From positions 1 to 64,000 of the forward strand of contig JALQYQ010000030.1 of assembly GCA_023262855.1 (NCBI GenBank): DNA of 64,000 nucleotides, read 5' to 3'. The stretch is from Crocinitomicaceae bacterium. GTDB lineage: Bacteria; Bacteroidota; Bacteroidia; Flavobacteriales_D; Crocinitomicaceae. Every line of letters begins with the position of its first letter. The stretch's first letter is position 1. A program made the position numbers and the translations under genes. The notes under the pieces are model-generated. The model saw only the letters and a program-made list of their open reading frames with translations. It did not search any database and was not told where the DNA came from. Of this stretch, positions 1 to 20,580 are shown piece after piece.

Positions 1-327
1 AGCGCTTTTACGACGATTACGATTAACACAGTAACAGATGATATTACACAGTTAATTCCAAATGTTATTTCACCAAATGGTGATGGTAAAAATGATGTTT
101 GGAAGTTGGAATTTATCGATTTGCTTTATCCAACAGCAACAGTAGAAATATACAATCAATGGGGCCAACGCCTATTTTATTCAGAAGGTTATGCAACACC
201 TTGGGATGCAAAATTCAATGGTGAATTTGTACCTGAAGGAAATTACTACTACGTAATTAATTTGAATTCTGGAGGAACAGATGATTTGTTCAAAGGAGCT
301 TTGTTGGTATTTAAAGGACGAAAATAA
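1..327 (+). CDS. C-terminal fragment of a giant secreted protein with a gliding-motility-associated C-terminal domain (cassette copy 1, protein A)
   Basis: The reading frame is open from the first base, so this is the 3' end of a gene that begins before the window. The visible ~108 residues contain a complete CHU_C/gliding-motility-associated C-terminal domain. It opens with LIPNVISPNGDGKNDVW, continues with the EIYNQWGQRLFYS strand pair and the YYYVINLN strand, and ends in the FKGALLVFKGRK tail. This domain is a type B T9SS sorting signal that sends cargo across the outer membrane. It matches the C-terminus of the 1139-aa protein at 9345-12764 almost residue for residue, so the missing part is probably similar (IgGFc-binding-like N-terminus, repeats, PKD domains). 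The next gene starts 2 bases after the stop, which indicates an operon. Identity of the domain is firm; the rest of the protein is inferred from the paralogue. Confidence 0.88.
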   Translation, partial: SAFTTITINTVTDDITQLIPNVISPNGDGKNDVWKLEFIDLLYPTATVEIYNQWGQRLFYSEGYATPWDAKFNGEFVPEGNYYYVINLNSGGTDDLFKGALLVFKGRK

Positions 328-329
328 GG

Positions 330-1298
330 ATGAAAAAGCTATTAATTGTCAGTTTGATAGTGCTTACCAATTCAGTTTTGCTTGGTCAGCAGCAAGGAAT
401 TTATTCCAACTTTATGATGAACGATTACTATTATAATCCTGCAATTGCTGGTTCGAAAGACGTGAACATTGCAAGTGTGGGATACAGAAATCAGTGGGTT
501 GGATTTAATGATGCACCTGTAAATATGTATGCTAATTTGTACGGTTCATACAAGGATCAGGGAAAAATTGGATATGGAGGATCAATCGTTTCCCAAAAAA
601 CTGGCTTGACTGCTTCTACAGGGATTTACCTGAATTATGCCCATCATTTTAAATTATCAAAAACGGTAAAACTTGGTTTGGGAATACAACCAGGTTATTT
701 ACAATACCGCATTCGAATGTATGACGCAATCATGGCTGATCAAAACGATGAGGTGTTTAATAGCAATGTTTATTTAACGAGTGCATTTGATGTCAATGCA
801 GGATTTAATCTGTACCACAAAAAGTTCTTTGTAATGGGAGCTGTTCAACATTTGTTAGGAAACAGTTCTAAATTGACTAGTTACAATTCTAGTCTTTCAT
901 TTCATTACAACTTTGTTGGTGGTTATAATTTTAGACTGAAAAAACAGCCAATCGACATTCAGCCATCGTTGATGATAAAATATGTAAAACCTGTTCCTGT
1001 TCAAGCAACATTGATGGTGAAGGGTGTTTACCAAGAAAAATATTGGTTAGGACTTTTATTCAGAACGAATGATGCTGTTGGAATTTGCTTAGGAATTAAG
1101 TTAAAAGATCGTTTGAATATTTCCTATGGATACGACATCTGTGTTTCCAAAATTCGCAAATACAACAGCGGTTCTCACGAGGTATTTTTATCCTACGCAA
1201 TCAATAAAAAACGTCCAACACTGGAAGAAGAGGACGACAAATTGAACAATAGTATCCTTGAAGACATGAAGAAAAAAATGGATAAGAAGGAGAAATAA
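330..1298 (+). CDS. PorP/SprF family type IX secretion system membrane protein (barrel A, copy 1)
   Basis: A 322-aa predicted outer-membrane beta-barrel of the PorP/SprF family. Residues 1-19 are a signal peptide ending near LLG/QQQ. The diagnostic start QGIYSNFMMNDYYYNPAIAG follows directly, then amphipathic strands to about residue 290. F. johnsoniae SprF is needed to secrete the adhesin SprB, and related genes usually sit just after their cargo gene, as here. The last ~30 residues form a charged tail (TLEEEDDKLNNSI then Lys-rich) beyond the last barrel strand. The tail is nearly identical in the paralogue at 12768-13739, which is similar along its whole length. The gene lies between two giant cargo genes with gaps of 2 and 7 bases, so it is co-transcribed with both. 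Pairing with the upstream cargo is inferred from position. Confidence 0.9.
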   Translation: MKKLLIVSLIVLTNSVLLGQQQGIYSNFMMNDYYYNPAIAGSKDVNIASVGYRNQWVGFNDAPVNMYANLYGSYKDQGKIGYGGSIVSQKTGLTASTGIYLNYAHHFKLSKTVKLGLGIQPGYLQYRIRMYDAIMADQNDEVFNSNVYLTSAFDVNAGFNLYHKKFFVMGAVQHLLGNSSKLTSYNSSLSFHYNFVGGYNFRLKKQPIDIQPSLMIKYVKPVPVQATLMVKGVYQEKYWLGLLFRTNDAVGICLGIKLKDRLNISYGYDICVSKIRKYNSGSHEVFLSYAINKKRPTLEEEDDKLNNSILEDMKKKMDKKEK

Positions 1299-1305: not shown

Positions 1306-4300
1306 ATGAAAACACCACTAAAATCACTAATTCTGTTGCTTTTAACTTTTCTCTTAAATTGTGGAGAAAGTAAAGCTCAAATCGATACCGTTTTTTGGTT
1401 TGCGGCACCATGGGTGACACCCGATCACCATTGGAGAGATCCAATCAAATTTCACTTTTCGACGTTTAATAATCCAACAGCCGTTCGATTGAGAATGCCT
1501 GCGAATGGTTATGATACAACGATCAATATTCCTGCGAATTCGCTTTTTTCAAAAGGAGTGGATTTCATGATGAATACCATCGAAAGTAAACCGGCAAATA
1601 CTATTTTGAATTCTGGTTTTCAGATTACATCTGATTTCCCGATCACAGTTGTATATGACGTTATTACGCGTGCGCCAAATTACTACAACCCCGAAACCTT
1701 TTCTTTGAAAGGTCAAAATGGACTTGGGAAGGAGTTCGTCGCACCGTTTCAAACACGTTGGAACAATCAAACATTGGGCGGCGATTTAAATGGTGATGGA
1801 GTTGTGACACAGCCCTACCAGCAAATCAACATTGTGGCAAGTGAAGATAATACAGTGTTGTATATAACTCCAAGATGTGCGGTTGTTGGACACCCAGCAA
1901 ATGTGACTTATACCGTTACATTGCCAGTGAAAGGAAATGTTTATACAGTTCAGAATGCCGTGCAAAACACATCCGTAGTTGGGAACAATCTGGCGGGTAC
2001 AATTATCGTTAGTAGCAAACCTGTTTCTGTAACTGTAGGAGATGATTCAGTGAATCCTTCTGGTGGTGGTGGATGTTATGACTTAATGGGAGATCAAATT
2101 GTTCCAACCGATGTTATTGGAAAGGAATACATTGTCTTAAAAGGATTTTTGAATGCCGGTTCTGAGGAATCTGTGTTTGTTACGGCTACTGAGAATTTCA
2201 CCACTGTAACGGTAAATGATGGAACGATTTCAACGGTTATTTTAAATCAAGGAGATACGTATCGTTATCAACTGGCGCAAGCTAGAACACATGTTCAAGC
2301 GGACAAATCAGTCTATGTTTTGCACATGACCGGTTATGGTTGTGAATTAGGTTCGGATATTTTGCCTCCTTTAAATTGTGCAGGGTCTGATATTGTAACC
2401 TTTCCACGTACAAATCCGCAAAATTTTTCGTTGAATATTTTATGTCCAACGGGTATAACAGGAAATTTCCAATTGAATGGAAATGCCGCATCGATTCCAG
2501 CGGCCAATTTTAATGTGGTACCTGGTACTGGAGGAGCTTGGTCAGCAGCCCAAATAACCTTTAATACAACCGTTATTCCTTCAAACTCCTCTAATATTCT
2601 AACAAATTCCGCTGGAAACTTTGCAATGGGTATTATCAATGGAGGTACAACAACAGGATGCTTGTATCACTACATGTCATCGTTCATTAAACGAGTATCT
2701 GTAAGTGCTGGTGATGATATAACCTTGTGTAACAATGTTACCTCAATACCTTTAAATGGAAGTGTTTCTGGAGGCGTTTCAACTGGAGTATGGACTCTTT
2801 TAAATGGAACAGGAACTATTTCTGCTCCTACAAATTTGTCAACAACCTATAATCCATCTCCAAGTGACTTTACACAAGGATATGTAAAATTTGTATTGTC
2901 TTCAACTGGACTTTGTGAACCAGTGCATGACACTTTAACCGTTTCGTTCATTCAAGCTCCGTTTGTCAATGCTGGAGCTGATGCATCATTTTGTAAAAAC
3001 AATGTTGGAACCGTTCAATTGAATGGCGTAATGAGTTTTGCGTCAGGAGCTGTGTGGTCTGGTGGAAATGGTGGTTCAATTGCAAACAGTGGAAATTTAA
3101 GTACCACTTACTTGCCATCACAAGCAGATTTAAATGCTGATAGTATTACCTTATTCTTAACATCAAGTGGAAGTTTCTATGCTTGTCCAAATGCAATAGA
3201 TAGTTTAAAAGTATATTTTACAGATGCACCAGTTGTTCAAGCTGGCCCAGATGTGGTTGTTTGTACGAACGCTGCCGGAGTGAATTTAAATGGAAGTATT
3301 TCTGGCCCTACAACAACTGGAATTTGGACAACAGGAGGTTATGGAAGTTTCTCTCCTTCACAAACAAATTTGGTTTCCTTGTATAATCTTAATCTGAATG
3401 ATACAAGTATTAATCAGCTTTATTTGACATTGGAATCAACCAATAATGGAACGTGTTTAGCTGTAAAGGATAGTTTGAAAGTTACCATTATAAGTCAACC
3501 GCAAGTTTCAATTTTGACCAATGACACGCTTTGTTCAACCGCATCTTTAATTCCGTTGACAGGATTTGTAACACCAGGATTTAATTCCTTGTGGACTGAA
3601 ACAGGTGGTGGTTCAATTGTATCACCGTCATCACTGACAACTTTCTATCCAATTACAGGGGGAGACATAGCCACTGGATTTGTAGATTTTGTGCTGTCGA
3701 GTACAAGTTTGTGTCCAGCAGAAGATGATTCGATTCGTATTTATTTGGTTGCACCGCCAGTGCTTTCCGCTGGGATAGATCAAACGTTATGTGCGAATGA
3801 ACCCATTGAATTAATTGGGACGATCAATGTCGCTAATCCTCAAGGTACTTGGTCGAGTCTTGGAACTGGTAATTTTTCTCCTTCTGGTGCATTGCTGAAT
3901 ACGTATTATTTGCCCTCTGCATCTGACATTGCTGTTGGAAGTGTAAATCTACTATTATCCGCAGATGGAAATTTAGGATGTATGCCAATGGACGATACTG
4001 TTCATATTACATTCAAACCATCACCAATAGCCGATTTTAATGGAGGTGAAATTTGTCAAGGAGCTCCAGTAACATTCAATGACAATTCAACAACATCTTC
4101 GGGAACACTTGTTAGTTGGTCATGGGATTTTGGTGACTTCACCTCTGGAACGGGTCAAAATCCAATACATACATACAATGGAAATGGCTTGTTTTCACCA
4201 ATGTTAGTTGTGACTTCTTCAAATGGCTGTTCGGATACATTGATTAAAGATGTGATTGTTGACCCAATTCCAATAGCGGATTTCAACTTTACGGCACCTT

Positions 4301-5028
4301 GTGAAAATGCATTGGTTTATTTTGATGATCAATCATTTATTTCAAATGGAAGTATCGTTGCTTGGAATTATCATTTTGAAGATACCTTAACAAGCAATTT
4401 ACCAAATCCATCTTACGATTTCAGTGGATCGGGAATTTTTCCTGTCACATTAACTGTTACAACATTTGCTGGATGTCAAGGTAGTGTTACGCTTAATTTA
4501 GATGTTAAACCAAAACCTGTTGCGGCATTTACGATGAATCCGAATCCTGCGGTTGTATTGGAAAACGTCGAATTTACAGATAATTCTGTTGGTTCGAATA
4601 TCAATAGTTGGTACTGGAATTTTGGAGATGGAACTGGAGACAATCAACAGAATACCATCCATAATTTCACGAATGGTGGTTACAATACAATTACTTTAAT
4701 TATCACTGACGAATTTGAGTGTCAAGATACAGCAAAAGCACTTATTGAAGTTGCTTTAATTCCTTCTGTTCCAACTGGTTTTTCACCAAATCATGATGGT
4801 GTAAATGATGTTTTGTACATCGATGGAGGACCATTCAATAAGGTTGATTTTAAGATCTTCAATAATTGGGGACAGGTTGTTTTCAAAAGTGAAGATGCAG
4901 CAATTGGTTGGGATGGAATGTACCATGACAAAGAGGCGCCGCTTGGTGTATACACGTGGGTATTAACAGTTGAAATGAAAGATGGTAAAATCATCACGAA
5001 ATCTGGTGATGTGACTTTATTACATTGA
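1306..5028 (+). CDS. Giant secreted adhesin-like protein: IgGFc-binding-like N-terminus, repeats, PKD domains, gliding-motility C-terminal domain (protein B, copy 1)
   Basis: A 1240-aa exported protein. Residues 1-25 are a signal peptide ending SKA/Q. Residues ~26-460 resemble the IgGFc-binding-protein N-terminal domain found in many Bacteroidota surface proteins, beginning IDTVFWFAAPWVTPDHHW. Residues ~462-900 hold five ~90-residue repeats with the pattern NAG-D..-C.N..-LNGS-SG..TG.W. Residues ~903-1150 are three PKD domains (for example WSWDFGD and WYWNFGDG). Residues ~1150-1240 are the CHU_C sorting domain (PTGFSPNHDGVNDV, NNWGQVVF). The expected fate is T9SS export and surface attachment. 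The stop overlaps the start of the next barrel gene by 4 bases. The paralogue at 13752-17474 has exactly the same length. LLNC in the signal region is not a convincing lipobox. Ligand and adhesive function are not proven. Confidence 0.87.
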   Translation: MKTPLKSLILLLLTFLLNCGESKAQIDTVFWFAAPWVTPDHHWRDPIKFHFSTFNNPTAVRLRMPANGYDTTINIPANSLFSKGVDFMMNTIESKPANTILNSGFQITSDFPITVVYDVITRAPNYYNPETFSLKGQNGLGKEFVAPFQTRWNNQTLGGDLNGDGVVTQPYQQINIVASEDNTVLYITPRCAVVGHPANVTYTVTLPVKGNVYTVQNAVQNTSVVGNNLAGTIIVSSKPVSVTVGDDSVNPSGGGGCYDLMGDQIVPTDVIGKEYIVLKGFLNAGSEESVFVTATENFTTVTVNDGTISTVILNQGDTYRYQLAQARTHVQADKSVYVLHMTGYGCELGSDILPPLNCAGSDIVTFPRTNPQNFSLNILCPTGITGNFQLNGNAASIPAANFNVVPGTGGAWSAAQITFNTTVIPSNSSNILTNSAGNFAMGIINGGTTTGCLYHYMSSFIKRVSVSAGDDITLCNNVTSIPLNGSVSGGVSTGVWTLLNGTGTISAPTNLSTTYNPSPSDFTQGYVKFVLSSTGLCEPVHDTLTVSFIQAPFVNAGADASFCKNNVGTVQLNGVMSFASGAVWSGGNGGSIANSGNLSTTYLPSQADLNADSITLFLTSSGSFYACPNAIDSLKVYFTDAPVVQAGPDVVVCTNAAGVNLNGSISGPTTTGIWTTGGYGSFSPSQTNLVSLYNLNLNDTSINQLYLTLESTNNGTCLAVKDSLKVTIISQPQVSILTNDTLCSTASLIPLTGFVTPGFNSLWTETGGGSIVSPSSLTTFYPITGGDIATGFVDFVLSSTSLCPAEDDSIRIYLVAPPVLSAGIDQTLCANEPIELIGTINVANPQGTWSSLGTGNFSPSGALLNTYYLPSASDIAVGSVNLLLSADGNLGCMPMDDTVHITFKPSPIADFNGGEICQGAPVTFNDNSTTSSGTLVSWSWDFGDFTSGTGQNPIHTYNGNGLFSPMLVVTSSNGCSDTLIKDVIVDPIPIADFNFTAPCENALVYFDDQSFISNGSIVAWNYHFEDTLTSNLPNPSYDFSGSGIFPVTLTVTTFAGCQGSVTLNLDVKPKPVAAFTMNPNPAVVLENVEFTDNSVGSNINSWYWNFGDGTGDNQQNTIHNFTNGGYNTITLIITDEFECQDTAKALIEVALIPSVPTGFSPNHDGVNDVLYIDGGPFNKVDFKIFNNWGQVVFKSEDAAIGWDGMYHDKEAPLGVYTWVLTVEMKDGKIITKSGDVTLLH

Positions 5029-6023
5029 TTATGAGAAATAGAATACTAGTTTTATCGATAAGTTTGATTTCCTTTATAGGCAGGGCGCAGGATCCACATT
5101 TAACAATGTACGACGCTGCACCAATGTTCTTGAATTCAGGATTAACAGGTCTTTTTAAAGGAGATTGGCGTTTACATACCCAATATAGAACACAATGGCG
5201 TTCGGTTAATTACAAGCCTTACACGTCTTCCTTGTTTAGTTTTGACCGTTCAATAGGAGAAAAATGGGGATTTGGAATTCAGCTACACAATTTCAGAGCA
5301 GGTTATGGAAATTTCAATGTTCTTCAAGGACTTGTTTCTACCTCTTACGGTATTGCTGTAGATAAAAATAAATTTCACAATTTATCATTTGGACTACAGG
5401 CTGGTGCAATTCAAAAATCAATCGAATTGCCATTATTGACGTTCAACAATCAATATACATTAACGAACGGTGGAAGTTATGATAACACTTTACCATCTGG
5501 TGAGAATGTTGGTGCTCAAGTTAAATTGATGCCAACAGTGAATGCAAGTGTTATGTATTATTCAGGGAAACAGCAAAGTCGCTACAATTATTTTGCTGGT
5601 TTGTCTTTGTTTAATTTATTGCGTCCAAATGAGTCATTTTTCGGGTATGAGAATCGCTTACCCATTCGTGGGTACTTGCATTTAGGTACTCGAATCAATG
5701 TGAATGAACTTCTTTATTTTGCTCCGAAGCTGTTGTTGATGCATCAGCGAAAATTCAATGAGCAAACATTAGCGCTTGAATCTGGTTATTTCTTGAAAAG
5801 CTCTGAAACCTTTTTAATTGGAAGCATGATGTTCCGTTACAAGGATGCTTTTGCACTTTCATTAGGCGTGAAAAAATTGAATTTTATCTTCAGAATTGCT
5901 TACGACATCAACGTTTCTAAGCTGACAACTGCTTCAAAAGGAAGGGGAGGAATTGAATTCTCATTGACGTACACGAGAATTAAAGACAAGCCACAAACAA
6001 TGAAAATTATCCCACGATTATAA
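5025..6023 (+). CDS. PorP/SprF family type IX secretion system membrane protein (barrel B, copy 1)
   Basis: A 332-aa predicted outer-membrane barrel. The signal peptide (residues ~1-21, ending GRA/Q) is followed by the PorP/SprF start QDPHLTMYDAAPMFLNSGLTG. It then contains strands such as WRLHTQYRTQWRSVNYKPYT. The C-terminus is the final strand GGIEFSLTYTR plus a short basic end (KPQTMKIIPRL). It lacks the acidic tail of the barrel at 330-1298 and is clearly a different subtype. Its close relative is at 17477-18466. The start overlaps the 1240-aa gene by 4 bases (coordinates 5025-5028), so translation is probably coupled to that cargo. The expected role is outer-membrane partner for secretion or anchoring of the preceding giant protein. 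The family is firm; the specific partner is inferred. Confidence 0.9.
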   Translation: MIMRNRILVLSISLISFIGRAQDPHLTMYDAAPMFLNSGLTGLFKGDWRLHTQYRTQWRSVNYKPYTSSLFSFDRSIGEKWGFGIQLHNFRAGYGNFNVLQGLVSTSYGIAVDKNKFHNLSFGLQAGAIQKSIELPLLTFNNQYTLTNGGSYDNTLPSGENVGAQVKLMPTVNASVMYYSGKQQSRYNYFAGLSLFNLLRPNESFFGYENRLPIRGYLHLGTRINVNELLYFAPKLLLMHQRKFNEQTLALESGYFLKSSETFLIGSMMFRYKDAFALSLGVKKLNFIFRIAYDINVSKLTTASKGRGGIEFSLTYTRIKDKPQTMKIIPRL

Positions 6024-6032: not shown

Positions 6033-7676
6033 ATGTATAAATTGCTTTTAGTATTGGTCTTTTTGCCAGTAATTTCCTTTTCACAATCGAAAATGGCTTG
6101 GATTCACAATGCGGATAATTATTATGCAAATGCTGATTATTACAATGCATTGGTGTTGTATCAATATGCTCAAAATGATTCATTAATTAAGAAGGAAAGT
6201 GTTCTTCCTTATGAAGTAGAATTGACGAATCAGAAATTAACGGTTGAAGGCATTCGTCTTGATTCTACCCACGTGATTCCTATGAATCAATATGTTACTC
6301 ATCAAATTGCAATGTGTCATTTCTATTTACACAATTATCAATTGGCTGAGCAATCATTTAAAGTTTCTGCTGCTTTGCCATACTACGAAAGCGATAAGTT
6401 TCACTACGCACGTGCGATGAAAAGCAATGAAAATTATCATTTAGCTTCTAATTTGTTTGAAGAATTTATTGCTGCGCACCCAACGGATTCACTTACGTCA
6501 ATTGCTAAGATTGAGTTGGAAGGATGTAAATACGCCTTGGAAAATCACCCTGAAAATTGGAATGCTCATGTGAAAATGGCTGATACAAGTGTGTTTAATC
6601 GTGGAACTGTTTCTATGGCAACCATGTTCTTTGGAAGACAAAACCGCCTTATGTTTTCAAGTGCTCGTAAAGGGGGCGTTATCTTGAAGCCTGAACAAAA
6701 TTCTGAATTGCTTTTCGACATCTATTGGACGGAAAAAAGCAATGATTCAACTTGGAAGCCAGCGGTTAACTTTGGTCGCCCATTGAATTCTGCCTCACAT
6801 GATGCAACGGCAACGATTTCGAACAACAATGTCATTTATTATACGAGATGGAACGATAAATTCCGCAAAGACCAATACATTCATTTAGCGCGAATGGTCG
6901 ATTTCAAATTCTATGAATCATACACCTTGGAATCACCAGTTAATTACCCAGGAAAAAAGAGTATAACACCGTTTGTTTCAGAAGACGGTCGAACATTGTA
7001 TTTTTCAAGTAATCGTGATGGAGGTTTTGGTGGAATGGATATTTGGAAAATTCCAATTGATGATCAAGGTAGAACAATTGGTGTTGCTGTAAATTTGGGA
7101 CCAGAAGTGAATTCACCCATGGACGAAATTTGTCCTTTTGTTCATTCGCTATCAAATACCTTGTTTTTCAGTTCAAATGGCTATAACTCAATGGGTGGAT
7201 ACGATGTATTTAAAGCGGGATATAATTCTGAAGAAAATACGTACGCTGCACCAATGAACCTTGGTAAAAGCATCAATTCAAGTAAAGATGATGTTTATTT
7301 TATCATTGATTCACTCATGTTGAATGGTTTTTTGACAAGTGATCGTAATTCTGAGGATAATGTGTATCCGACTAAAATACTTGAATTCACAAACGATCAA
7401 ATTCTAATCGCTTCCATTGGACAAGTGATTGGTGCGGATGGGAAACCTTTGGCAAAAGCAGCTGTTGAAATAAAGGATGTGTCTGGTAGTTTAGCTGCAT
7501 TGAATCTTGTTACGGATGCAAACGGCAAATTTATGTGCAATTTGCCATTCGGATATGAGTTTTACATTGAGACGCAGATGAGTGGTTATATTCCAAATGC
7601 GATGAATTTCTCAACAAAGAATTACACGACTTCTCAGTCGGTTGTTTTGGAAAAAATTCAAATGGAAAAGAAGTAA
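6033..7676 (+). CDS. PorE-like TPR / beta-propeller / carboxypeptidase-regulatory protein lacking the OmpA domain (copy 1)
   Basis: A 547-aa exported protein. Residues 1-17 are a signal peptide (ends SFS/Q). Residues ~20-185 look like TPR helices. Residues ~185-455 are PD40/WD40-like propeller blades (FVSEDGRTLYFSSNRDGGFG, LFFSSNGYNSMGGYDVF). Residues ~460-547 are a carboxypeptidase-regulatory-like beta-sandwich (GADGKPLAKAAVEIKDVSG). P. gingivalis PorE has this order followed by a peptidoglycan-binding OmpA domain. The paralogue at 18478-20580 has that domain, but this protein stops at the linker where it should start. The stop lies directly against the cysS stop, so there is no room for a decayed remnant. 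It could still join a T9SS-linked complex without peptidoglycan anchoring. Reading frame and domains are clear; function is inferred. Confidence 0.83.
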   Translation: MYKLLLVLVFLPVISFSQSKMAWIHNADNYYANADYYNALVLYQYAQNDSLIKKESVLPYEVELTNQKLTVEGIRLDSTHVIPMNQYVTHQIAMCHFYLHNYQLAEQSFKVSAALPYYESDKFHYARAMKSNENYHLASNLFEEFIAAHPTDSLTSIAKIELEGCKYALENHPENWNAHVKMADTSVFNRGTVSMATMFFGRQNRLMFSSARKGGVILKPEQNSELLFDIYWTEKSNDSTWKPAVNFGRPLNSASHDATATISNNNVIYYTRWNDKFRKDQYIHLARMVDFKFYESYTLESPVNYPGKKSITPFVSEDGRTLYFSSNRDGGFGGMDIWKIPIDDQGRTIGVAVNLGPEVNSPMDEICPFVHSLSNTLFFSSNGYNSMGGYDVFKAGYNSEENTYAAPMNLGKSINSSKDDVYFIIDSLMLNGFLTSDRNSEDNVYPTKILEFTNDQILIASIGQVIGADGKPLAKAAVEIKDVSGSLAALNLVTDANGKFMCNLPFGYEFYIETQMSGYIPNAMNFSTKNYTTSQSVVLEKIQMEKK

Positions 7677-9143
7677 TTAACTCCAAGTAGTTCCTTCTTT
7701 TCCGTCTTTAATTGTAATTCCAGCTGCCGCTAGTCCGTCACGTATTTTATCGGATGTTGTCCAGTCTTTGTTTTCACGTGCTTGTTGACGTAAATCAATC
7801 ACTAAATCCATCACTGGAGCTAACTTTTCGTTGCTATTTTCAGTTGTAATTTGAAGACCAAGTACGTCATAAATGAAACGAAGCATTTCTGTTTCCAATT
7901 TTGATAAATCTTCTTTCGTAATTGTATCGTTTCCGTCGTTGATCAAGTTAATGCGCTTAACTGCCTCAAATAAATTGGCAACAAGAATCGAAGTGTTGAA
8001 ATCATCATTCATTGCAGCATAAAAAGAGGCAATCAATTCATCGACATTGAATGAACTAGTGGATGAAACCTTTAATTTGGAAATCAATTGCATAGCATCT
8101 GACATGCGTGTAAATCCTTTTTCAGCAGCATTCAAAGCATCTGATGTGAAATCCAGATTACTTCTGTAATGAGCTTGCATCATGAAGAAGCGGATTACAT
8201 TTGGACTGTATGGTTTATCAAACAATTCAGTTGTACCATCCACAATTTCTTTTGGCAAGAAATAATTCCCAAAGGATTTACTCATTTTTTGACCGTTCAC
8301 ATTCAGCATGTTAGCGTGCAACCAATATTTGGCTGGATTACAACCTAACGAACCGCAGTTTTGAGCAATTTCATCTTCATGGTGCGGGAATTTTAAATCC
8401 ATTCCACCTCCGTGAATATCAAAGTGGGAGCCTAAGTATTTTGTACTCATAGCCGTACATTCGATGTGCCATCCTGGATTTCCATCTCCCCAAGGTGAAC
8501 GCCAGATTTGCATGTCCTCTGGATTGGCTTTTTTCCACAATGCGAAATCAGCAAAGAAACGTTTTTCATCTTGTGCATTTAATACACGTGTTTCTTCCGC
8601 TAATTCATCTACTTTTCTTCCGCTTAAAATTCCGTATTCAAACTTTTCACTGTATTTCTTTACATCGAAATAAACTGAACCATTTACAACATACCCAAAT
8701 CCATTTTCAATGATTTTCTCAATGTGTTCAATTTGTTCTTGAATATGTCCTGTAGCTGTTGGTTCAATGCTTGGAGGCAACAAATTGTAAATACGCTGTA
8801 ATTCTTGAAATTTTACATTGTATTTATAGACAATTTCCAATGATTGCATTTGTTCTAAGCGAGCAGCATTTCCAATACTATCAACCGCTTCGCCCAAACT
8901 GTTGGTAATGTGCCCGGCATCTGTAATGTTTCGTACATATTTCACCTTATAACCTAAAACTAAGAGGTAGCGATAGATCATATCGAAATTAATGAACGTG
9001 CGCATATTACCCATATGAGGTTCACTGTACAAGGTAGGACCACAAACATACATTCCCACATGATTCGTGTGAATTGGTTCGAATTTTTCTTTCTGTCCAG
9101 TTAAACTGTTGTAAACAACTAAATTTCCTTGAAGTGTGCTCAT
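7677..9143 (-). CDS. cysS: Cysteinyl-tRNA synthetase
   Basis: A 488-aa class I aminoacyl-tRNA synthetase that charges tRNA-Cys in the cytoplasm. Visible signatures are YVCGPT with the zinc-ligand Cys34, the HIGH-type motif HMGN at 43-46, GWHIECTAMS near 222-232, the downstream HGGGMDLKFPHHEDE zinc/active-site segment, and the KMSKS loop (GQKMSKSFGN) near 285. Length is normal for bacterial CysRS, and the C-terminal helical tRNA-binding region is present. The gene sits alone on the - strand between two copies of a + strand secretion cassette. Its stop codon directly abuts the stop of the upstream PorE-like gene, so the transcripts are convergent with no terminator between them. A good TAnnTTTG promoter lies about 25 bases upstream of its start. 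Confidence 0.97.
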   Translation of the reverse strand: MSTLQGNLVVYNSLTGQKEKFEPIHTNHVGMYVCGPTLYSEPHMGNMRTFINFDMIYRYLLVLGYKVKYVRNITDAGHITNSLGEAVDSIGNAARLEQMQSLEIVYKYNVKFQELQRIYNLLPPSIEPTATGHIQEQIEHIEKIIENGFGYVVNGSVYFDVKKYSEKFEYGILSGRKVDELAEETRVLNAQDEKRFFADFALWKKANPEDMQIWRSPWGDGNPGWHIECTAMSTKYLGSHFDIHGGGMDLKFPHHEDEIAQNCGSLGCNPAKYWLHANMLNVNGQKMSKSFGNYFLPKEIVDGTTELFDKPYSPNVIRFFMMQAHYRSNLDFTSDALNAAEKGFTRMSDAMQLISKLKVSSTSSFNVDELIASFYAAMNDDFNTSILVANLFEAVKRINLINDGNDTITKEDLSKLETEMLRFIYDVLGLQITTENSNEKLAPVMDLVIDLRQQARENKDWTTSDKIRDGLAAAGITIKDGKEGTTWS

Positions 9144-9165
9144 TGTTGAATGAATATGTATGGAA

Positions 9166-9199
9166 CAAAGATAATTGAATTCGAATTTTAATCTCTAAA
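9166..9199 (-). promoter_or_regulatory. Probable cysS promoter (Bacteroidota type)
   Basis: Read on the - strand, TATCTTTG at 9166-9173 fits the TAnnTTTG -7 consensus exactly. A TTTAG at 9195-9199 lies 21 bases further upstream, near the expected -33 position. The predicted transcript start would be about 17 bases before the cysS ATG. The -33 match is imperfect. Confidence 0.5.
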
Positions 9200-12767: not shown

Positions 12768-13739
12768 ATGAAATCACTACTGACAATCATTTTTATTGTG
12801 AGTCTTTGCTCATTTGCAAAAGCTCAACAACAAGGAGTGTATTCAAATTTCTTGATGAACGATTATTATTACAATCCAGCAATTGCGGGAAGTAAAGATG
12901 TACACATGGCAAATTTGAGTTACCGTAATCAATGGGTTGGGTTTGATGATGCTCCGGTGAACATGAATGCTAATTTCTATGGTTCTGTTCGCAATAATGG
13001 AAAAGCTGGTTACGGAGCATCTCTTGTTTCGGAGAAATCTGGATTGGTGAACAACACAGGAATTTACTTGAATTATGCGCAGCATTTCAAGTTAAGTAAG
13101 AAACTCAAATTGGGATTCGGAATTCAGCCAGGATATATTCAATACCGCGTAAAATTATATGATGCGGTTCTTGCCGATCAGGGTGATGAAGTATTAACAG
13201 GAAGCGTTTATGCTGCGAATGCAATTGATGTGAATGCGGGTTTCCATTTGTATTCGAAAAAGTTCTTTTTGATGGGTTCTATGCAGCATTTATTGACGAA
13301 GCAAATTCAATTTACTTCTTATAATTCCAATTTGGCTTTCCATTACAATGCAATTGTAGGTTATACTTTCGAGTTTCCGAAGAAGAATTTTGAGCTTCAA
13401 CCGAGTTTCATGCTGAAGTATACAAGCCCAATTCCTGTTCAATGGACTGGAATGTTAAAAGGAACTTTCAACAATAAAATTTGGGCAGGATTGATTTTCC
13501 GTTCTGATGACGCAGTAGGACTTTCACTTGGCATCAAGTTAAAAGAACGCTTGAACATTGGATATGGATATGATTATTCTGTTTCTAAAATCAGAAAATA
13601 CAATTCGGGTTCGCATGAAGTGATGTTGTCTTTTGTAATTACCAAAAAGAAACCGACGCTTGAAGAGGAAGACGACAAGCTGAACAACAGCATCATGGAG
13701 GACATGAAAAAGAAAATGGAAGAAAAAGAAAAGAATTAA
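12768..13739 (+). CDS. PorP/SprF family type IX secretion system membrane protein (barrel A, copy 2)
   Basis: A 323-aa predicted outer-membrane barrel. The signal peptide (residues 1-19, AKA/Q) is followed by QQGVYSNFLMNDYYYNPAI, the PorP/SprF start. Strands continue to about residue 290 (SKIRKYNSGSHEVMLSF). A C-terminal acidic/lysine tail follows (TLEEEDDKLNNSI, then EDMKKKMEEKEKN). The tail is conserved with the paralogue at 330-1298 and absent from the two B-type barrels. Position 3 bases after the 1139-aa cargo gene and 12 bases before the 1240-aa cargo gene places it in the operon. By analogy with SprF it should serve export of the preceding cargo. Family assignment is firm; partner and tail function are inferred. 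Confidence 0.9.
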   Translation: MKSLLTIIFIVSLCSFAKAQQQGVYSNFLMNDYYYNPAIAGSKDVHMANLSYRNQWVGFDDAPVNMNANFYGSVRNNGKAGYGASLVSEKSGLVNNTGIYLNYAQHFKLSKKLKLGFGIQPGYIQYRVKLYDAVLADQGDEVLTGSVYAANAIDVNAGFHLYSKKFFLMGSMQHLLTKQIQFTSYNSNLAFHYNAIVGYTFEFPKKNFELQPSFMLKYTSPIPVQWTGMLKGTFNNKIWAGLIFRSDDAVGLSLGIKLKERLNIGYGYDYSVSKIRKYNSGSHEVMLSFVITKKKPTLEEEDDKLNNSIMEDMKKKMEEKEKN

Positions 13740-13751: not shown

Positions 13752-16700
13752 ATGCGTTTTAAAAAACACCTCATTTTAGTAGTCTTTTTCTTCTTTTTCG
13801 GCGCGAAAGAAGTTAAGGCGCAAATTGACACCGTCTTTTGGTTTGCAGCTCCTTGGGTAACACCTGATCACTGGTGGCGAGATCCTATTGCATTCCATTT
13901 TTCAACATTTAACAATCCAACAGCTGTGCGCGTTCGAATGCCGGCAACTGGTTACGACACGACAATTAACATTCCTGCAAATTCACTTTTTTCGAAAAAT
14001 GTGCATTTCATGATGAATGCAATTGAGAGTAAACCAGCAAACACAGTCTTAAACAGCGGTTTTCAAATTACATCCGACCATCCTATAACAGCAGTTTATG
14101 ATGTTATTACCCGTGGACCGAATTACAACAATCCTGAAACGTATTCATTGAAAGGGCAAAATGGACTTGGAACCGAGTTTGTCACACCATTTCAAACACG
14201 ATGGAATAACCAAACTTTAGGAGGAGATTTAGATGGAAATGGTACTATTGTTCAACCGTATCAGCAAATAAACATTGTTGCTACTGAGGATAATACTGTT
14301 GTATATATTACTCCACGTTGTGCCGTAGTAGGTGGACATCCTGCCAACGTTACTTATTCTGTAACATTGCCGTTCAAAGGAAATGTTTATACTGTTCAGA
14401 ACATGGTGCAAAACACCAGCGTTGCAGGGAATAATCTAGCTGGTTCAATTGTAGTCTCAACAAAACCAGTTGCTGTTACAGTTTCCGATGATTCAGTGAA
14501 TCCTTCCGGTGGTGGTGGTTGTTATGACTTAATGGGTGATCAAATTGTTCCAACAGACGTAATTGGTGACGAATACATAGTATTGCGTGGATTTTTAAAT
14601 GCTGGTTCAGAAGAGTCATTCTTTGTAACTGCGACTGAAAACTTTACTACTGTTACAATCAATGATGGCGGTGTAACAAACGTGATTTTAAATCAAGGAG
14701 ATACCTATCGCTATCAATTGGCACAGCCACGTACCCATGTTCAATCGGATAAACCAGTTTACTTATTGCACATGGCTGGTTATGGTTGTGAATTAGGGGA
14801 AGCCTTGTTGCCACCTCTAAATTGTGCGGGTTCTGATATTGTAACCTTCCCTAGAACAAATCCACAGAACTTTTCATTGAATGTTCTTTGTCCTGCCGGA
14901 GCGCAAGGTTCTTTCTTACTGAATGGCAGTGCTGCATTGGTTCCTGCGGGAAGTTTTAATGTCGTTCCAGGAACAGGCGGACAATGGTATGCTGCGCAAT
15001 TAACTTATTCGACTGCTCAAATACCCTCGGGTTCTTCAAATATCTTGACGAATTCAACTGATAATTTTGCGCTTGGTGTTATTAATGGTGGAACAACAAC
15101 AGGTTGTTTGTATCACTACATGTCATCCTTTATTCGACGTGTTTACACAAAAGCTGGAAATGATACAATTTTGTGTAATGGAGAACTTCAAATTAACTTA
15201 AACGGAAGTGTGACTGGTGGTTCAATTACCGGAATCTGGAATGTTTTGGATGGAACTGGAACATTATCTACACCAACGAATTTAGTTACTTCTTATACGC
15301 CTTCAACAAGTGATTACGCGCAAGGTTCATTGACTTTCGTACTTAGCTCAACCGGAAATTGTAATCCAGTTACCGATACGATGAAAGTGAGCTTTATTCA
15401 ATCACCAATCGTAGGAGCTGGAGGAGATAATACCTTCTGTAAAAACAATGTTGGTGCTGTTCCGATTAGTGGTTTTGTGAATTTTGCTTCGGCCGCTTCC
15501 TGGTCAGGTGGAACAGGTGGAGCTTTTGGGAACTCAGGAAGTTTAACAACAACTTACACACCTTCACCTACAGATTTAGCAGCTGATAGTGTTGCTTTGT
15601 TTTTGACTTCAGCAGGAAGCTTCTTCTCTTGTCCAAATGATGTTGATACTGTTGTCATTCACTTTACGAATCCACCAACCGTTATTGCAGGACCAAATCA
15701 AGTAGTTTGTTCAAGTACAACGCTTGCTCCCTTGTCGGGAAGTATTTCTGGTCCAACATCAACTGGTGTTTGGACAACTACAGGTTCAGGAGCTTTTTCT
15801 CCAAGTCAGTCCAATTTGATGACGGATTACTTAATCAGTAGTTCGGATACAACGGTTGGAACAATTGTTATGACTTTGACATCAACCAACAATGGAAATT
15901 GTTTGGCGGTTCAAGACAGTTTAGAAATAACAATTATTGATCAACCACAAGTGACAATCACCATGGCTGATTCTATCTGTTCAAATACCACCGTACTTAA
16001 TTTTACCGGAAATGTAACCTCTGGATTCTCGACACTTTGGTCAGTAAATGGATTTGGATCCATTGCGAATACTTCTGCAATTCCGACTTTTTACACGGTA
16101 AGTCCAATCGACACAACAATTGGATATATTGATGTTTTACTTTCAACGACCGGAATTTGTCCAATAGAAAACGATTCATTGCGTATCCATTTTATCGACC
16201 CACCAAATGTGAATGCTGGTGTTGATCAAGCGTTTTGTCAAAACGAAGCAATTCAATTAAACGGAACGATAAGTGGACCGAATCAAACTGGATCTTGGTC
16301 AACAATGGGAACAGGTGCTTTTAATCCAAGCAACATGCTCTTATCAACACTTTATTTCCCGTCGAATTCAGATATTTTAAATGGTGGAGTGAATTTAATT
16401 TTATCGTCTGCTGGTTCATTTGGATGTTCACCAGACAATGATACACTTCACGTTACGTTCAAAAGTTCACCAACAGCTGCTTTCAATTCAACAGCAGCAT
16501 GTCAAGGAAGCAATACTGCTTTCACAGACATGTCAACAACACCATCAGGTACAATTGTTGGTTGGGATTGGAGTTTTGGTGATACAGGAACATCAATTAC
16601 TGATGATCCATTGCACACGTATACAGCAAGCGGAACGTTTAATGCAACTTTGATTGTTGAATCAAGTCTTGGTTGTTTTGATACGATCCAACAAAATGTG

Positions 16701-17474
16701 ACTGTCAATCCTTTACCAATTCCTTCATTCACGAATACAATTGCTTGTGAAAATGGGGAAATCTTCTTCACAGATAATTCATTTATTTCTTCTGGAAGCA
16801 TCAATTCTTGGGAATATGTATTTGAACCTGGTACTATTAGTAATCAACAAAATCCAAGCTATACATTCACTTCTGCAGGAACTTATGCGGTTGAATTTAC
16901 AGCTACATCAGCTTTAGGATGTGAAGCGAGTGTTTTCCAAAATGTTGTGGTCAATCCAAGTCCAACAGCTTCATTTACAATCAATCCAAATCCAGCTTTG
17001 GCTTTGGAGGATGTTAATTTCATCGATGCTTCCACTGGGAATCAGCTAAGTTCATGGTATTGGAATTTTGGAGACGGTGAAGGAGATAACAATCAGAATT
17101 CGATTCATAACTATTCAACCGGTGGAGTTTATCCAATAACATTAATTGTAACAGACATTAATGGATGTCAAGACACGACAAAAGCGGATTTGGCAATTGC
17201 CTTATTACCTGTTTTACCGACAGGTTTCACACCAAATGAAGATGGTGAAAATGATATATTTATTATTCGTGGGGGACCTTTCAAAACAGTAGATTTTAAA
17301 ATTTACAACAATTGGGGACAGTTAATCTACGAATCGAATGATGCATTGGAAGGTTGGAACGGAATGTATCAAGGAGAGAGAGCTCCAATGGGTGTTTATA
17401 CTTGGACGTTTACAGTTGAAATGACGAATGGTCAGATTGTGAAGAAGTCGGGTGATGTTACTTTAATGCGTTAA
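13752..17474 (+). CDS. Giant secreted adhesin-like protein: IgGFc-binding-like N-terminus, repeats, PKD domains, gliding-motility C-terminal domain (protein B, copy 2)
   Basis: A 1240-aa exported protein with the same plan and length as the protein at 1306-5028. It has a signal peptide to about residue 24 (VKA/Q), an IgGFc-binding-like domain (IDTVFWFAAPWVTPDHWW) and five ~90-residue repeats. Three PKD domains follow (GWDWSFGDTG, WEYVFEPG, WYWNFGDGEG), then the CHU_C sorting domain (PTGFTPNEDGENDIF, NNWGQLIYES). Small indels compensate between the copies: for example, one extra Gly in VVGGHPAN is offset by a shorter signal region. The next gene starts 2 bases after the stop. Expected to be exported through the T9SS with the B-type barrel that follows. 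Ligand unknown. Confidence 0.87.
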   Translation: MRFKKHLILVVFFFFFGAKEVKAQIDTVFWFAAPWVTPDHWWRDPIAFHFSTFNNPTAVRVRMPATGYDTTINIPANSLFSKNVHFMMNAIESKPANTVLNSGFQITSDHPITAVYDVITRGPNYNNPETYSLKGQNGLGTEFVTPFQTRWNNQTLGGDLDGNGTIVQPYQQINIVATEDNTVVYITPRCAVVGGHPANVTYSVTLPFKGNVYTVQNMVQNTSVAGNNLAGSIVVSTKPVAVTVSDDSVNPSGGGGCYDLMGDQIVPTDVIGDEYIVLRGFLNAGSEESFFVTATENFTTVTINDGGVTNVILNQGDTYRYQLAQPRTHVQSDKPVYLLHMAGYGCELGEALLPPLNCAGSDIVTFPRTNPQNFSLNVLCPAGAQGSFLLNGSAALVPAGSFNVVPGTGGQWYAAQLTYSTAQIPSGSSNILTNSTDNFALGVINGGTTTGCLYHYMSSFIRRVYTKAGNDTILCNGELQINLNGSVTGGSITGIWNVLDGTGTLSTPTNLVTSYTPSTSDYAQGSLTFVLSSTGNCNPVTDTMKVSFIQSPIVGAGGDNTFCKNNVGAVPISGFVNFASAASWSGGTGGAFGNSGSLTTTYTPSPTDLAADSVALFLTSAGSFFSCPNDVDTVVIHFTNPPTVIAGPNQVVCSSTTLAPLSGSISGPTSTGVWTTTGSGAFSPSQSNLMTDYLISSSDTTVGTIVMTLTSTNNGNCLAVQDSLEITIIDQPQVTITMADSICSNTTVLNFTGNVTSGFSTLWSVNGFGSIANTSAIPTFYTVSPIDTTIGYIDVLLSTTGICPIENDSLRIHFIDPPNVNAGVDQAFCQNEAIQLNGTISGPNQTGSWSTMGTGAFNPSNMLLSTLYFPSNSDILNGGVNLILSSAGSFGCSPDNDTLHVTFKSSPTAAFNSTAACQGSNTAFTDMSTTPSGTIVGWDWSFGDTGTSITDDPLHTYTASGTFNATLIVESSLGCFDTIQQNVTVNPLPIPSFTNTIACENGEIFFTDNSFISSGSINSWEYVFEPGTISNQQNPSYTFTSAGTYAVEFTATSALGCEASVFQNVVVNPSPTASFTINPNPALALEDVNFIDASTGNQLSSWYWNFGDGEGDNNQNSIHNYSTGGVYPITLIVTDINGCQDTTKADLAIALLPVLPTGFTPNEDGENDIFIIRGGPFKTVDFKIYNNWGQLIYESNDALEGWNGMYQGERAPMGVYTWTFTVEMTNGQIVKKSGDVTLMR

Positions 17475-17476: not shown

Positions 17477-18466
17477 ATGAAGAAGTTTATACTATTATTT
17501 TTCTTAATTGGCTTAGTACCAAAATTGAAGGCTCAAGATGCGCATTTATCCATGTATGATGCTGCGCCTTTGTTTTTAAATTCAGGAATGACAGGTGTTT
17601 TTGAAGGAAAATGGCGTGTTCATGCGCAATATAGAACACAGTGGAAATCGGTGAATTTCAAACCGTACACATCCGCTTTGGTGAGTTTTGATATGCCCGT
17701 TCGCAAGTGGGGGTTTGGTGTGCAAATTCATAATTTCAGAGCAGGTTATGGAAACTTTAATGTACTCCAAGGTTTAGTTTCTGCAGCTTACAATATGTCG
17801 CTGGATAAAAGACGTTTCAATAATTTATCGTTTGGAATTCAAGCTGGAGCCATGCAAAAATCTGTTGAGTATCAGTTGCTATCATTTAACAATCAATACA
17901 CACTGAATAACGGTGGTGAATTCAATACTTCGCTTGTTTCTGGTGAAACATTTGGTGCTCAGTCTATGATTGTTCCTGTTGCGAATGCAAGTTTATTGTA
18001 CTATTATGCACGTCAACAAAGTAAATTGAATCCTTTTGTTGGAATTTCAGCGTTTAATTTGCTTCAACCAAATGAATCCTTTTTTGGACAAGACAATCGT
18101 TTACCGATGCGTTTTTATGCGCATATAGGAACGCGAATAAACATCACTGAATTGTTTTATCTCCTTCCTAAGGTTTTGGTTATGCAACAAGAAAAGTTTA
18201 ATGAACAAACCTTTGCCTTGGAAGCAGGTTATTTCCTGAAAGGAAGCGAAACCTATTTACTTGGTGGATTGATCTACCGTGCAAAAGATGCAGCGATTGC
18301 CACATTTGGAGTTAAAAAAGAAAATTTCATCGTTAAATTGGGGTATGATGTGAATGTTTCTTCTTTATCAACAGTGTCAACTGGTAGAGGTGGTTTCGAA
18401 TTGTCGTTTACCTATGTGAATGGAAAAAACAAACCGAAAGTCGATAAAATTTGTCCAAGATTGTAA
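17477..18466 (+). CDS. PorP/SprF family type IX secretion system membrane protein (barrel B, copy 2)
   Basis: A 329-aa predicted outer-membrane barrel. The signal peptide (residues ~1-19, LKA/Q) leads into QDAHLSMYDAAPLFLNSGMTG, the same subtype start as the barrel at 5025-6023. It ends in GGFELSFTYVNGKNKP and a short basic terminus (KICPRL). It lacks the acidic tail of the A-type barrels. It follows the 1240-aa cargo by 2 bases. Its stop overlaps an in-frame ATG of the next gene, which could couple translation. Its role is probably the outer-membrane partner of the 1240-aa cargo, by analogy with SprF and SprB. Confidence 0.9.
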   Translation: MKKFILLFFLIGLVPKLKAQDAHLSMYDAAPLFLNSGMTGVFEGKWRVHAQYRTQWKSVNFKPYTSALVSFDMPVRKWGFGVQIHNFRAGYGNFNVLQGLVSAAYNMSLDKRRFNNLSFGIQAGAMQKSVEYQLLSFNNQYTLNNGGEFNTSLVSGETFGAQSMIVPVANASLLYYYARQQSKLNPFVGISAFNLLQPNESFFGQDNRLPMRFYAHIGTRINITELFYLLPKVLVMQQEKFNEQTFALEAGYFLKGSETYLLGGLIYRAKDAAIATFGVKKENFIVKLGYDVNVSSLSTVSTGRGGFELSFTYVNGKNKPKVDKICPRL

Positions 18467-18477
18467 TGAATAGTACC

Positions 18478-20580
18478 ATGAAAAGATTTCTATTAGTTCT
18501 TGTTTGTCTGATTGGTTTAAATGCCTATTCACAATCAAAAAAGGTTTGGATTTACAACGCGGATAATTTTTATGCGCAAGAAGATTACTATAATGCATTG
18601 ACCTATTACAAAAAGGCTTTGAACGATTCTGTTGGAATGGGTTCAATGGTTTTGCCTTATGAAATTGAGGTAACAAATCAAAAATTACCTAAAAAAGGCA
18701 TTGAAGTGGATAGTAATCAACTCGTTTCATTAGAAGATTACGTCGATCACCAAATCGCGATGTGTTATCAAAAAACGTATGATTACAATCATGCAGCAGA
18801 TTATTTTGCGAAAACAAGTAAAAAAGGATCATATCCTAATGACCAATTTTACTATGCCAATGCATTGATGAACATCAAAAATTATGATCAGGCAATTAGT
18901 GAATTTGAAACGTACATTAAATCTGAAAAATATGCAGACTCTTTATTACGCACAGCTCAATTGAATATTACGGGTTGTTATTACGCCTTGAATGGAGACA
19001 ATGTAAAGCCGGAGGTGCAAATTCAATTGGCTGATTCAACGGTCTTTAACAAAGGAACTTCTTCGTTTGCGGTAAATTATTTTGGGAATGAAAATCGTGT
19101 CATGTTCACATCAGCAAGAGCTGGCGGTGTAATTTTGGAACCAGAACAAGAATCAGCTTTTTTGTGCGACATCTATTGGACAGAACGTAATGAAGCTGGA
19201 AATTGGGGTAAAGCAACAAATTTTGGACGACCACTTAATTCAGCGCAACATGATGCAGCAGCAACAATCAACAATCAAAATGTGATTTTTTACACCCGCT
19301 GGAGTGATGACAATCGTAAAGACCAAAGCATCTATTTGGGTCGTATGGTGGATTTTAAATTCTATGAAGCATATAAATTGGATGCAAAAGTGAATGTTCC
19401 AGGATACAAAAGCATGCAACCGTTTGTTTCAATGGATGGACAAACCTTGTATTTTTCGAGTAATCGACCTGGTGGACAAGGAGGATTTGATATCTGGAAG
19501 ATTGAAATTGATCCATTAGGAAATCTTGTAGGTGATGCCATTAATTTGGGATATCCTGTAAATTCAGATTTAGATGAGGTAACTCCATTCTTTCATGAAG
19601 CTTCATCAACCTTGTTTTTCAGTTCAAATGGACATAACTCAATCGGAGGTCTGGATGTATACAAAAGCTTCTATGACAAAGATGCTGAGACCTTTAATAC
19701 TCCAGCTAATTTAGGTCTTCCAATCAACTCGAGTAAAGACGATGCCTACTTAATTTGGGATACGAAATTGATGAAAGGATTTTTGTCGAGTGATCGTGAA
19801 CCATGTGAAACGGGACATTGTTATGATATTTATGAAGTGACCAATGAACCGATTCGCATTGTTTTAAGCGGATACTCCTATGATGCCTCAACGAATGAAA
19901 TTTTGCCAAATGCAAACCTAACATTCAAAGATGTTGACGGTGAATTTGCTCCTTTTGGGATTCAATCGGATGCGAATGGGTATTATGAAAAAGAACTAAC
20001 GCATGGCTGGGAATTATTCATTAAAGCTCAAAAAGAAAAGTACTTTGCAGATGCTGCGAATATTAATACAAAGACAATCACTGAATCGACAGCATTGACG
20101 CAAGACTTTTATTTGAATCCAATTCCACAGGATGAAATTGAAATTGAAGGAATTGAATACGATTTCGATTCTGACAAATTGCGTCCAATTTCGATGCAAC
20201 GTTTGGATAAAATCTACGAATTCTTGGTCTTGAATAATAACCTAGTCGTTGAGATTAATTCGCATACGGATTGTCGTGGTGTTGATATTTATAATCTCGA
20301 TTTATCGCAAAGACGTGCGAAATCGTGTGTTGACTATTTGGTTTCTAAAGGAATTGCACGTGAGCGTTTGATCCCAAAAGGATATGGAGAAACACAACCA
20401 AACTTTATGGCAGGAGCAGATAAGAAACCTATTTTAAACGAAAAAGGAGATCGAATTTTATTGACGGAAGATTATATAAACAAACAAAAAACGAAGGAAC
20501 GAAAAGAAGAATTGCATCAACGTAATCGCCGAACTTCGTTTAAAGTTGTTGGTGAAAAATATGAAGTAATTTCGAATTAA
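18478..20580 (+). CDS. PorE-like protein: TPR, beta-propeller, carboxypeptidase-regulatory and OmpA peptidoglycan-binding domains (copy 2)
   Basis: A 700-aa exported protein with the domain order of P. gingivalis PorE, a T9SS component that binds peptidoglycan. Residues 1-18 are a signal peptide (NAYS/Q). Residues ~20-180 are TPR-like. Residues ~180-450 are propeller blades (FVSMDGQTLYFSSNRPGGQG). Residues ~455-535 are a carboxypeptidase-regulatory-like domain. Residues ~553-700 are OmpA-like: EIEGIEYDFDSDKLRP, NSHTDCRG, and LDLSQRRAKSCVDYL with the Asp/Arg that bind diaminopimelate. The start at 18478 gives a clean signal peptide that aligns with the copy 1 paralogue. In-frame ATGs at 18466 and 18451 are possible but extend into the previous gene. 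It is the last gene of the operon and probably anchors its products to the cell wall. Confidence 0.88.
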   Translation: MKRFLLVLVCLIGLNAYSQSKKVWIYNADNFYAQEDYYNALTYYKKALNDSVGMGSMVLPYEIEVTNQKLPKKGIEVDSNQLVSLEDYVDHQIAMCYQKTYDYNHAADYFAKTSKKGSYPNDQFYYANALMNIKNYDQAISEFETYIKSEKYADSLLRTAQLNITGCYYALNGDNVKPEVQIQLADSTVFNKGTSSFAVNYFGNENRVMFTSARAGGVILEPEQESAFLCDIYWTERNEAGNWGKATNFGRPLNSAQHDAAATINNQNVIFYTRWSDDNRKDQSIYLGRMVDFKFYEAYKLDAKVNVPGYKSMQPFVSMDGQTLYFSSNRPGGQGGFDIWKIEIDPLGNLVGDAINLGYPVNSDLDEVTPFFHEASSTLFFSSNGHNSIGGLDVYKSFYDKDAETFNTPANLGLPINSSKDDAYLIWDTKLMKGFLSSDREPCETGHCYDIYEVTNEPIRIVLSGYSYDASTNEILPNANLTFKDVDGEFAPFGIQSDANGYYEKELTHGWELFIKAQKEKYFADAANINTKTITESTALTQDFYLNPIPQDEIEIEGIEYDFDSDKLRPISMQRLDKIYEFLVLNNNLVVEINSHTDCRGVDIYNLDLSQRRAKSCVDYLVSKGIARERLIPKGYGETQPNFMAGADKKPILNEKGDRILLTEDYINKQKTKERKEELHQRNRRTSFKVVGEKYEVISN

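Follow-up and report, generated by a model that had tools for sequence, protein, structure and literature searches.

The 64,000-nucleotide stretch of a Crocinitomicaceae bacterium analyzed here (contig JALQYQ010000030.1, positions 1 to 64,000; hereafter “the window”) begins with two copies of a block of five genes, in the order giant A, PorP/SprF-family barrel A (FA), giant B, PorP/SprF-family barrel B (FB) and PorE-like protein (E), both on the forward strand and separated by cysS in the opposite orientation. Across the order this block forms a conserved locus, and copy 2 is the ancestral cysS / A-FA-B-FB-E / aspS locus. The joint best explanation of the data, which we regard as probable though by a limited measure, is that the ancestral copy 2 encodes a wall-anchored surface-display system in which FB and E would be joined by a disulfide, and that copy 1 is an old, unanchored duplicate kept under selection. 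A more specific proposal is made tentatively, at rather less than even strength: that in this clade a disulfide covalently ties the PorE-linked SprF barrels to their wall anchor, running from the single cysteine of a CPRL tail to a twin-cysteine site of the E propeller, and that copy 1 is a natural domain-deletion experiment in which all three cysteines were lost once the OmpA domain was gone, while the rest stayed under selection.

The features of the locus, in window coordinates, are as follows.

1..327, forward: 3′ part of A1, the last 108 amino acids of the giant, with the type B sorting domain (CHU_C, 3.8e-23); the open reading frame is open at the first base
330..1298, forward: FA1, PorP/SprF-family barrel following A1 (PF11751, 5.4e-65)
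1306..5028, forward: giant B1, 1240 amino acids, with an IgGFc_binding-type N-terminal domain, PKD repeats and a CHU_C sorting domain
5025..6023, forward: FB1, PorP/SprF-family barrel with the tail ...KIIPRL, Ile standing in place of the tail Cys
6033..7676, forward: E1, PorE-like, 547 amino acids, lacking the OmpA domain and the propeller Cys pair
7677..9143, reverse: cysS, between the copies; ancestrally, the gene upstream of the single-copy block
9345..12764, forward: giant A2, 1139 amino acids, with an IgGFc_binding-type domain, PKD repeats and a type B sorting domain
12768..13739, forward: FA2, PorP/SprF-family barrel
13752..17474, forward: giant B2, 1240 amino acids, with an IgGFc_binding-type domain, PKD repeats and a type B sorting domain
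17477..18466, forward: FB2, PorP/SprF-family barrel with the tail ...KICPRL, in which Cys326 is fourth from the end
18451..20580, forward: E2, PorE-like putative anchor, 709 amino acids, with TPR-like and PD40 propeller repeats, a C-terminal OmpA domain and the Cys452/Cys457 pair
20873..22621, reverse: aspS, the downstream neighbour of the block here and of the single-copy block in relatives

The initial annotation had reported the same five-gene order twice around an inverted cysS, and the open reading frames, the protein identities and the DNA-level repeats all agree with it. In global alignments of copy 1 with copy 2, identity amounts to 79/108 positions for A (73%, over the 108 amino acids only), 213/322 for FA (66%), 798/1239 for B (64%), 204/328 for FB (62%) and 270/547 for E (49%), and direct repeats of up to 300 nucleotides, 72-77% identical and far above chance, recur at a near-constant spacing of 12,437-12,446 nucleotides. 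Copy 2 is complete, but giant A of copy 1 is cut to its last 108 amino acids, because the window begins at base 1 of its contig (C46 of the source genome, G000). The N-terminal remainder is represented on contig C71, at whose edge lies a protein with 60% identity to A2 residues 5-1078, and in the genome of a sister species (G002) the whole arrangement is unbroken, with an A1 of 1138 amino acids in the matching place. The equal length of the two B giants, which had been singled out earlier, is real but unremarkable, since B ranges from 1226 to 1269 amino acids across the 49 blocks described below.

All four giants (the A1 fragment, B1, A2 and B2) score above the Pfam cut-off for CHU_C, and A2 (55.4) and B2 (47.0) exceed the cut-off of 35 for the type B sorting domain TIGR04131; giants A and B carry the C-terminal type B sorting domain by which type B substrates of the type IX secretion system (T9SS) are recognized. 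The name of the IgGFc_binding-type domain, which accompanies PKD repeats in B1, A2 and B2, is no demonstration of antibody binding. PF11751 matches all four barrels, and TIGR03519 matches FA2 and FB2. Identity is about 39% between A2 and B2 and about 27% between FA2 and FB2, and the A and B halves of the block are therefore old paralogues of each other. The claim that each giant has a cognate barrel is backed by the gene order, by these domain matches and by work on Flavobacterium johnsoniae (PMC12618676, PMC9143113); the pairing for secretion, like the wall anchoring and the disulfide discussed below, is what we infer from sequence. The structure model of FB2, of moderate quality (mean predicted local distance difference test score, pLDDT, 69.1), consists of a barrel and a disordered tail (residues 319-329 under 50). 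The PDB folds nearest to it are FadL-type barrels, and the T9SS translocon entries 8gl6_F and 6h3i_F, chains which we take to be PorV, rank 4 and 19.

The two E proteins differ in a way that bears directly on the function of the copies. E2 has a Pfam OmpA domain (PF00691, 2.3e-16, residues 570-652), PD40 matches and a weak TPR match, and its best PDB match, over residues 565-700 (9.8e-27), is 6top, presumably a PorE domain. E1 has a PD40 match and weak carboxypeptidase-regulatory matches; Pfam finds no OmpA domain in it, and a tblastn search of window positions 6901-9400 revealed no convincing OmpA remnant downstream. The description of PorE as the peptidoglycan-binding member of each cassette thus applies to E2 but not to E1, and the copies are not equivalent because E1 lacks this domain, so copy 1 cannot be regarded as a second, equivalent version of the module. 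The idea of a self-contained display module is plausible for copy 2, as a static module of the PorP-PorE type, although a T9SS translocon encoded elsewhere would still be required. Neither E1 nor E2 shows a lipobox pattern in its first 45 residues (such patterns match in 5 of the 121 E proteins considered below), and E must for this reason be held by a partner at the outer membrane.

In the mechanism proposed here, copy 2 would supply two giant type B T9SS substrates, each with its own PorP/SprF outer-membrane barrel, together with one soluble periplasmic PorE-like protein. The OmpA domain of E2 is expected to bind peptidoglycan, which would leave at least giant B displayed in a static, wall-anchored form. 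The holder of E would be the C-terminal ...CPRL tail of FB, which probably reaches E and whose cysteine would be disulfide-bonded to the two conserved propeller cysteines of E. In Porphyromonas gingivalis PorP binds PorE and PorE binds peptidoglycan (PMC9143113), and the PorE-linked type B systems of F. johnsoniae have been proposed to be static (PMC9143113, PMC12618676). Copy 1 goes back to an ancient duplication of the entire block, which took place in the ancestor that these freshwater congeners share; E1 ends at the cysS junction just before the position of the OmpA domain, its stop codon (7676) abutting that of cysS (7677), and the tail cysteine of FB1 and the cysteine pair of E1 have been replaced. 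Since FB1 keeps PRL, it may still bind E1 without the bond, and copy 1 is best read as an unanchored display variant.

The five-gene order recurs in related genomes. A search with an FB profile over a sample of 399 genomes of the order, in which at most five candidates per genome were scored, gave matches at E ≤ 1e-70 in 67 genomes. The stretches read contain 49 blocks in the order FA-B-FB-E, spread over 47 genomes, and 43 of the blocks include A as well; the adjacency of substrate, shuttle and PorE-like genes that characterizes static modules is present. Thirteen of the 47 genomes have cysS upstream of the block and, within the stretch read, aspS as well. Two of the 47 hold two block copies, and two FB matches better than 1e-150 occur only in G000 and G002. 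Within the genus, full-length B matches of at least 75% occur in 4 of 25 genomes (G000, G002, G005 and G021), several of the others being incomplete assemblies, and copy 1 is seen only in the source genome and its sister species, being absent from the single-copy congeners.

Some blocks show peculiarities of their own. A second, more distant three-gene set, comprising a giant with a C-terminal sorting domain, an FB-type barrel ending TCPRL or TCPKL and a PorE-like protein with OmpA, adjoins the five-gene block at L113 (G141), L122 (G205), L116 (G052) and contig C19 of G033 (L069/L070), and B-FB-E may for this reason be the older unit. The B gene at L067 (G026:C1:3330605-3334318) is split into two open reading frames by an in-frame TGA, which is either an error or a real break. 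The block on CAMDNE010000005.1 (L055) hardly differs from the one in a Flavobacteriales congener (L056), and the Chitinophaga pinensis label of the record is probably wrong.

The disulfide proposal draws on the positions at which copy 1 departs from all other blocks. Invariant positions were defined on 47 other blocks for FB and on 44 for the E core, the fragmentary E rows L106, L108 and L117 having been dropped. Copy 1 is altered at 4 of 84 invariant positions in FB, among them the only invariant cysteine, that of the CPRL tail, which reads IIPRL in copy 1 of both species, and at 10 of 71 in the E core, among them Cys452 and Cys457, while Cys105 and Cys176 are retained; the corresponding figures for A and B are 2/165 and 6/219. 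The chance that a random draw would alter all three cysteines is about 0.0009 (4/84 x 10/71 x 9/70), a value computed after the pattern had been seen. In B, the last residue is Arg in the 47 other blocks and His in copy 1, and Arg1173 is replaced by Asp, changes which possibly reflect altered barrel recognition.

A wider association between the two traits is seen among 121 pairs of adjacent SprF and PorE genes, drawn from the order and from a sample of the phylum; the set is uneven because it was gathered with PorE-like queries. Most of the barrel tails belong to either a CPRL-like or an SPR(F/Y)F class. When the tail cysteine is defined as one within the last 8 residues (78 pairs) and the propeller cysteine as one at alignment column 725, the latter occurs in 73 of those 78 and in none of the 43 pairs that lack a tail cysteine; the remaining five of the 78, the short E proteins L117, L123, L137 and L140 together with L258, have no residue at that column. 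When only the last 6 residues are considered, four E proteins shorter than 500 amino acids are dropped and L142 is added, the two traits agree in 118 of 118 pairs. The second propeller cysteine stands immediately beside the first (CC) in divergent members, and five or more residues before it elsewhere. The co-loss in copy 1 is the most telling point, yet it is a single event.

The locus added in the second count, L142 (G037:C3), encodes a 4494-amino acid giant, an FB-related barrel without the tail cysteine, a protein of 321 amino acids and then the PorE-like protein, whose gene is therefore one gene away from the barrel rather than adjacent to it. This PorE-like protein lacks the cysteine pair and keeps OmpA, so cysteine loss needs no loss of OmpA. 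Two other accounts of the pattern were considered and set aside: the cysteine of the OmpA domain (RAKSC, column 1221) as partner of the tail, since, of the 72 E proteins that have a residue at this column and a tail-cysteine barrel as partner, only 42 carry Cys there, and lipidation as the difference between the cysteine and non-cysteine classes, since lipobox patterns are rare in both (3/77 and 2/44). No report of a disulfide between SprF/PorP and PorE was found in the open-access literature searched.

The tail cysteine might instead serve gliding. According to this alternative, which we consider unlikely though the strongest of the competitors, it is bonded, like that of SprF, to GldK of the moving track, giant B is mobile, the cysteine pair of E forms a disulfide within the propeller, and both were lost from copy 1 by general divergence. 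In F. johnsoniae one cysteine of GldK forms disulfides with the tails of SprF and PorG, and loss of the SprF cysteines leaves display intact and stops movement; in P. gingivalis, PorG is functional with one cysteine in its tail (PMC12635249, 2025). The GldK of this genome scores above its curated cut-off and has several cysteines, and E1 has evolved fast, as its ten altered core positions indicate. However, FB tails have one cysteine or none and never the C-x-C of SprF, a motif also absent from the last 20 residues of all 21 proteins examined among the genome's 22 SprF-family members; FB adjoins a PorE-like gene, which the mobile substrates reported in PMC12618676 and PMC9143113 do not; the tail cysteine was lost together with OmpA, a coincidence that a link to the track does not predict; and FB1, with just four altered positions, argues against general divergence.

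The same genome contains other components of such systems. Its 3.3-Mb assembly encodes 22 PorP/SprF-family barrels, many with a C-terminal sorting domain protein upstream. Two of the SprF-family barrels, L149 (G000:C29) and L151 (G000:C63), end in ISCPSF, and the gene following L149 encodes a GldJ/GldK-like protein and not PorE. Elsewhere in the window, a 452-amino acid protein at 30081-31439 on the reverse strand resembles GldK/GldJ (TIGR03525, 137 bits, cut-off 350) and shares a GC(F/Y)LxN motif with the genome's GldK, and a 751-amino acid protein at 49943-52198 on the forward strand has a T9SS type A sorting domain (TIGR04183).

The age of copy 1 was judged from trees of the five genes, and the earlier suggestion of an old duplication of the whole block stands. 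In every tree copy 1 groups with copy 2 and the single copies of G005 and G021, with support of 99/97 for A (where copy 1 is represented by G002 only), 94/96 for FA, 99/98 for B, 100/99 for FB and 89/92 for E. A concatenated tree (30 of the 49 blocks, LG+G4; the chosen outgroup does not form one side of a branch) concurs, with copy 1 branching as the sister group of the clade formed by copy 2 and G005/G021 (Shimodaira-Hasegawa-like approximate likelihood ratio test 100), and the duplication is therefore older than the split between copy 2 and G005/G021, which presumably lost copy 1. It might alternatively be supposed that copy 1 arose recently within the G000/G002 lineage and that fast evolution has pushed it outside the congeners; its occurrence in those two genomes only, its long branch and the failure of four of the five single-gene trees to resolve the inner order are what such an origin would leave. 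This is nevertheless quite improbable, because a clade of copy 1 and copy 2 is rejected on the concatenated tree (approximately unbiased test, p 1.4e-6) and the one gene tree that resolves the order, that of B, joins copy 2 to G005/G021 (97/96).

The layout would follow from a tandem duplication reaching from the 3′ side of cysS into E, with subsequent loss of the outer cysS, which would give block-cysS-block in one orientation with E1 stopping before OmpA; E1 may have been truncated at that moment, or possibly by a later deletion. Transfer of copy 1 from a relative and insertion beside cysS would account for its absence from single-copy congeners, but is very improbable and was rejected on the trees, since all five genes group with this genus clade and with no other lineage, and a place beside cysS is expected of a tandem event. 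Copy 1 is under purifying selection: between G000 and G002 the ratio of nonsynonymous to synonymous change (dN/dS) in its genes is 0.018-0.053, at synonymous distances (dS) of 1.36-1.75 that are near saturation, and the genes are thus maintained. That copy 1 is a decaying, non-functional remnant, as the missing domain and cysteines of E1 might suggest, is hardly credible when its genes are all open in two species and have accumulated many silent and few replacement changes.

Several points weigh against the explanation preferred here. The E2 structure model (mean pLDDT 57) is unusable in the propeller, so its cysteines cannot be placed. Each trait changes three times on the SprF tree, two of the changes falling on starred branches and one being that of L142, and the E cysteine needs two changes on the PorE tree; the sign test gives p 0.5, where significance at 0.05 requires at least six independent changes, and with only about three, shared ancestry could explain much of the association. 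Cysteines at E columns 838, 902, 1264 and 1296 likewise distinguish the two clades, and a cysteine difference between clades is therefore unspecific; under the last-8-residue definition one pair, L258, disagrees. With regard to the history, the copy 1 branch is long (0.47 in the concatenated tree; longest for E1, at 1.69 versus 0.16-0.17 in the E tree) and the concatenated tree was built with LG+G4 without a mixture model. No convincing remnant of a second cysS was found upstream of A1, which makes the mode of duplication a conjecture, and the promoters of A1 and A2 show no similarity beyond coding sequence.

Surface proteins of Bacteroidota are either carried on a moving track or held still, and the carrier barrel seems to set the choice. 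If the proposal made here is true, still-held proteins use a matching disulfide to the wall, one cysteine in the barrel tail would decide the direction of the link, and the two copies in this genome offer a ready comparison of the linked and unlinked states. Should the disulfide not exist, the finding reduces to a conserved surface-display locus whose duplication is ordinary and well resolved.

Three known systems resemble the block. F. johnsoniae has six porP-like genes beside porE-like genes (PMC9143113) and five operons of type B substrate, SprF-like and PorE-like genes (PMC12618676), such as Fjoh_3952-3951-3950, which likewise combine a type B substrate, its cognate PorP/SprF shuttle and a PorE-like gene in a proposed static, wall-anchored complex. 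Unlike these operons, the block has two giants and two barrels sharing one PorE-like gene in an order fixed across an order of bacteria, and its FB carries a tail cysteine paired with the cysteine pair of E, while in the sample from other families most PorE-linked barrels have a cysteine-free SPR(F/Y)F ending. In the PG1035-PorP-PorE system of P. gingivalis, a protein with a type B C-terminal domain likewise sits on a PorP barrel bound to a peptidoglycan-binding PorE; that PorE is a lipoprotein (PMC9143113), whereas E1 and E2 have no lipobox and score 171.3 and 330.6, below the cut-off of 600 of the NCBIfam PorE model NF052230. SprB-SprF-GldK shares with the block a barrel with a cysteine in its periplasmic C-terminal tail beside a type B adhesin, and establishes disulfide attachment of a carrier as a principle (PMC12635249), but FB has the single cysteine of CPRL in place of C-x-C, has a PorE-like gene adjacent to it, and would have as its partner a wall anchor and not a moving track. 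The new element is the linked cysteine pattern of FB and E, which makes a direct test possible; if the proposed bond exists, it would be the mirror image of the gliding link, in which a twin-cysteine SprF is joined to a single cysteine of GldK.

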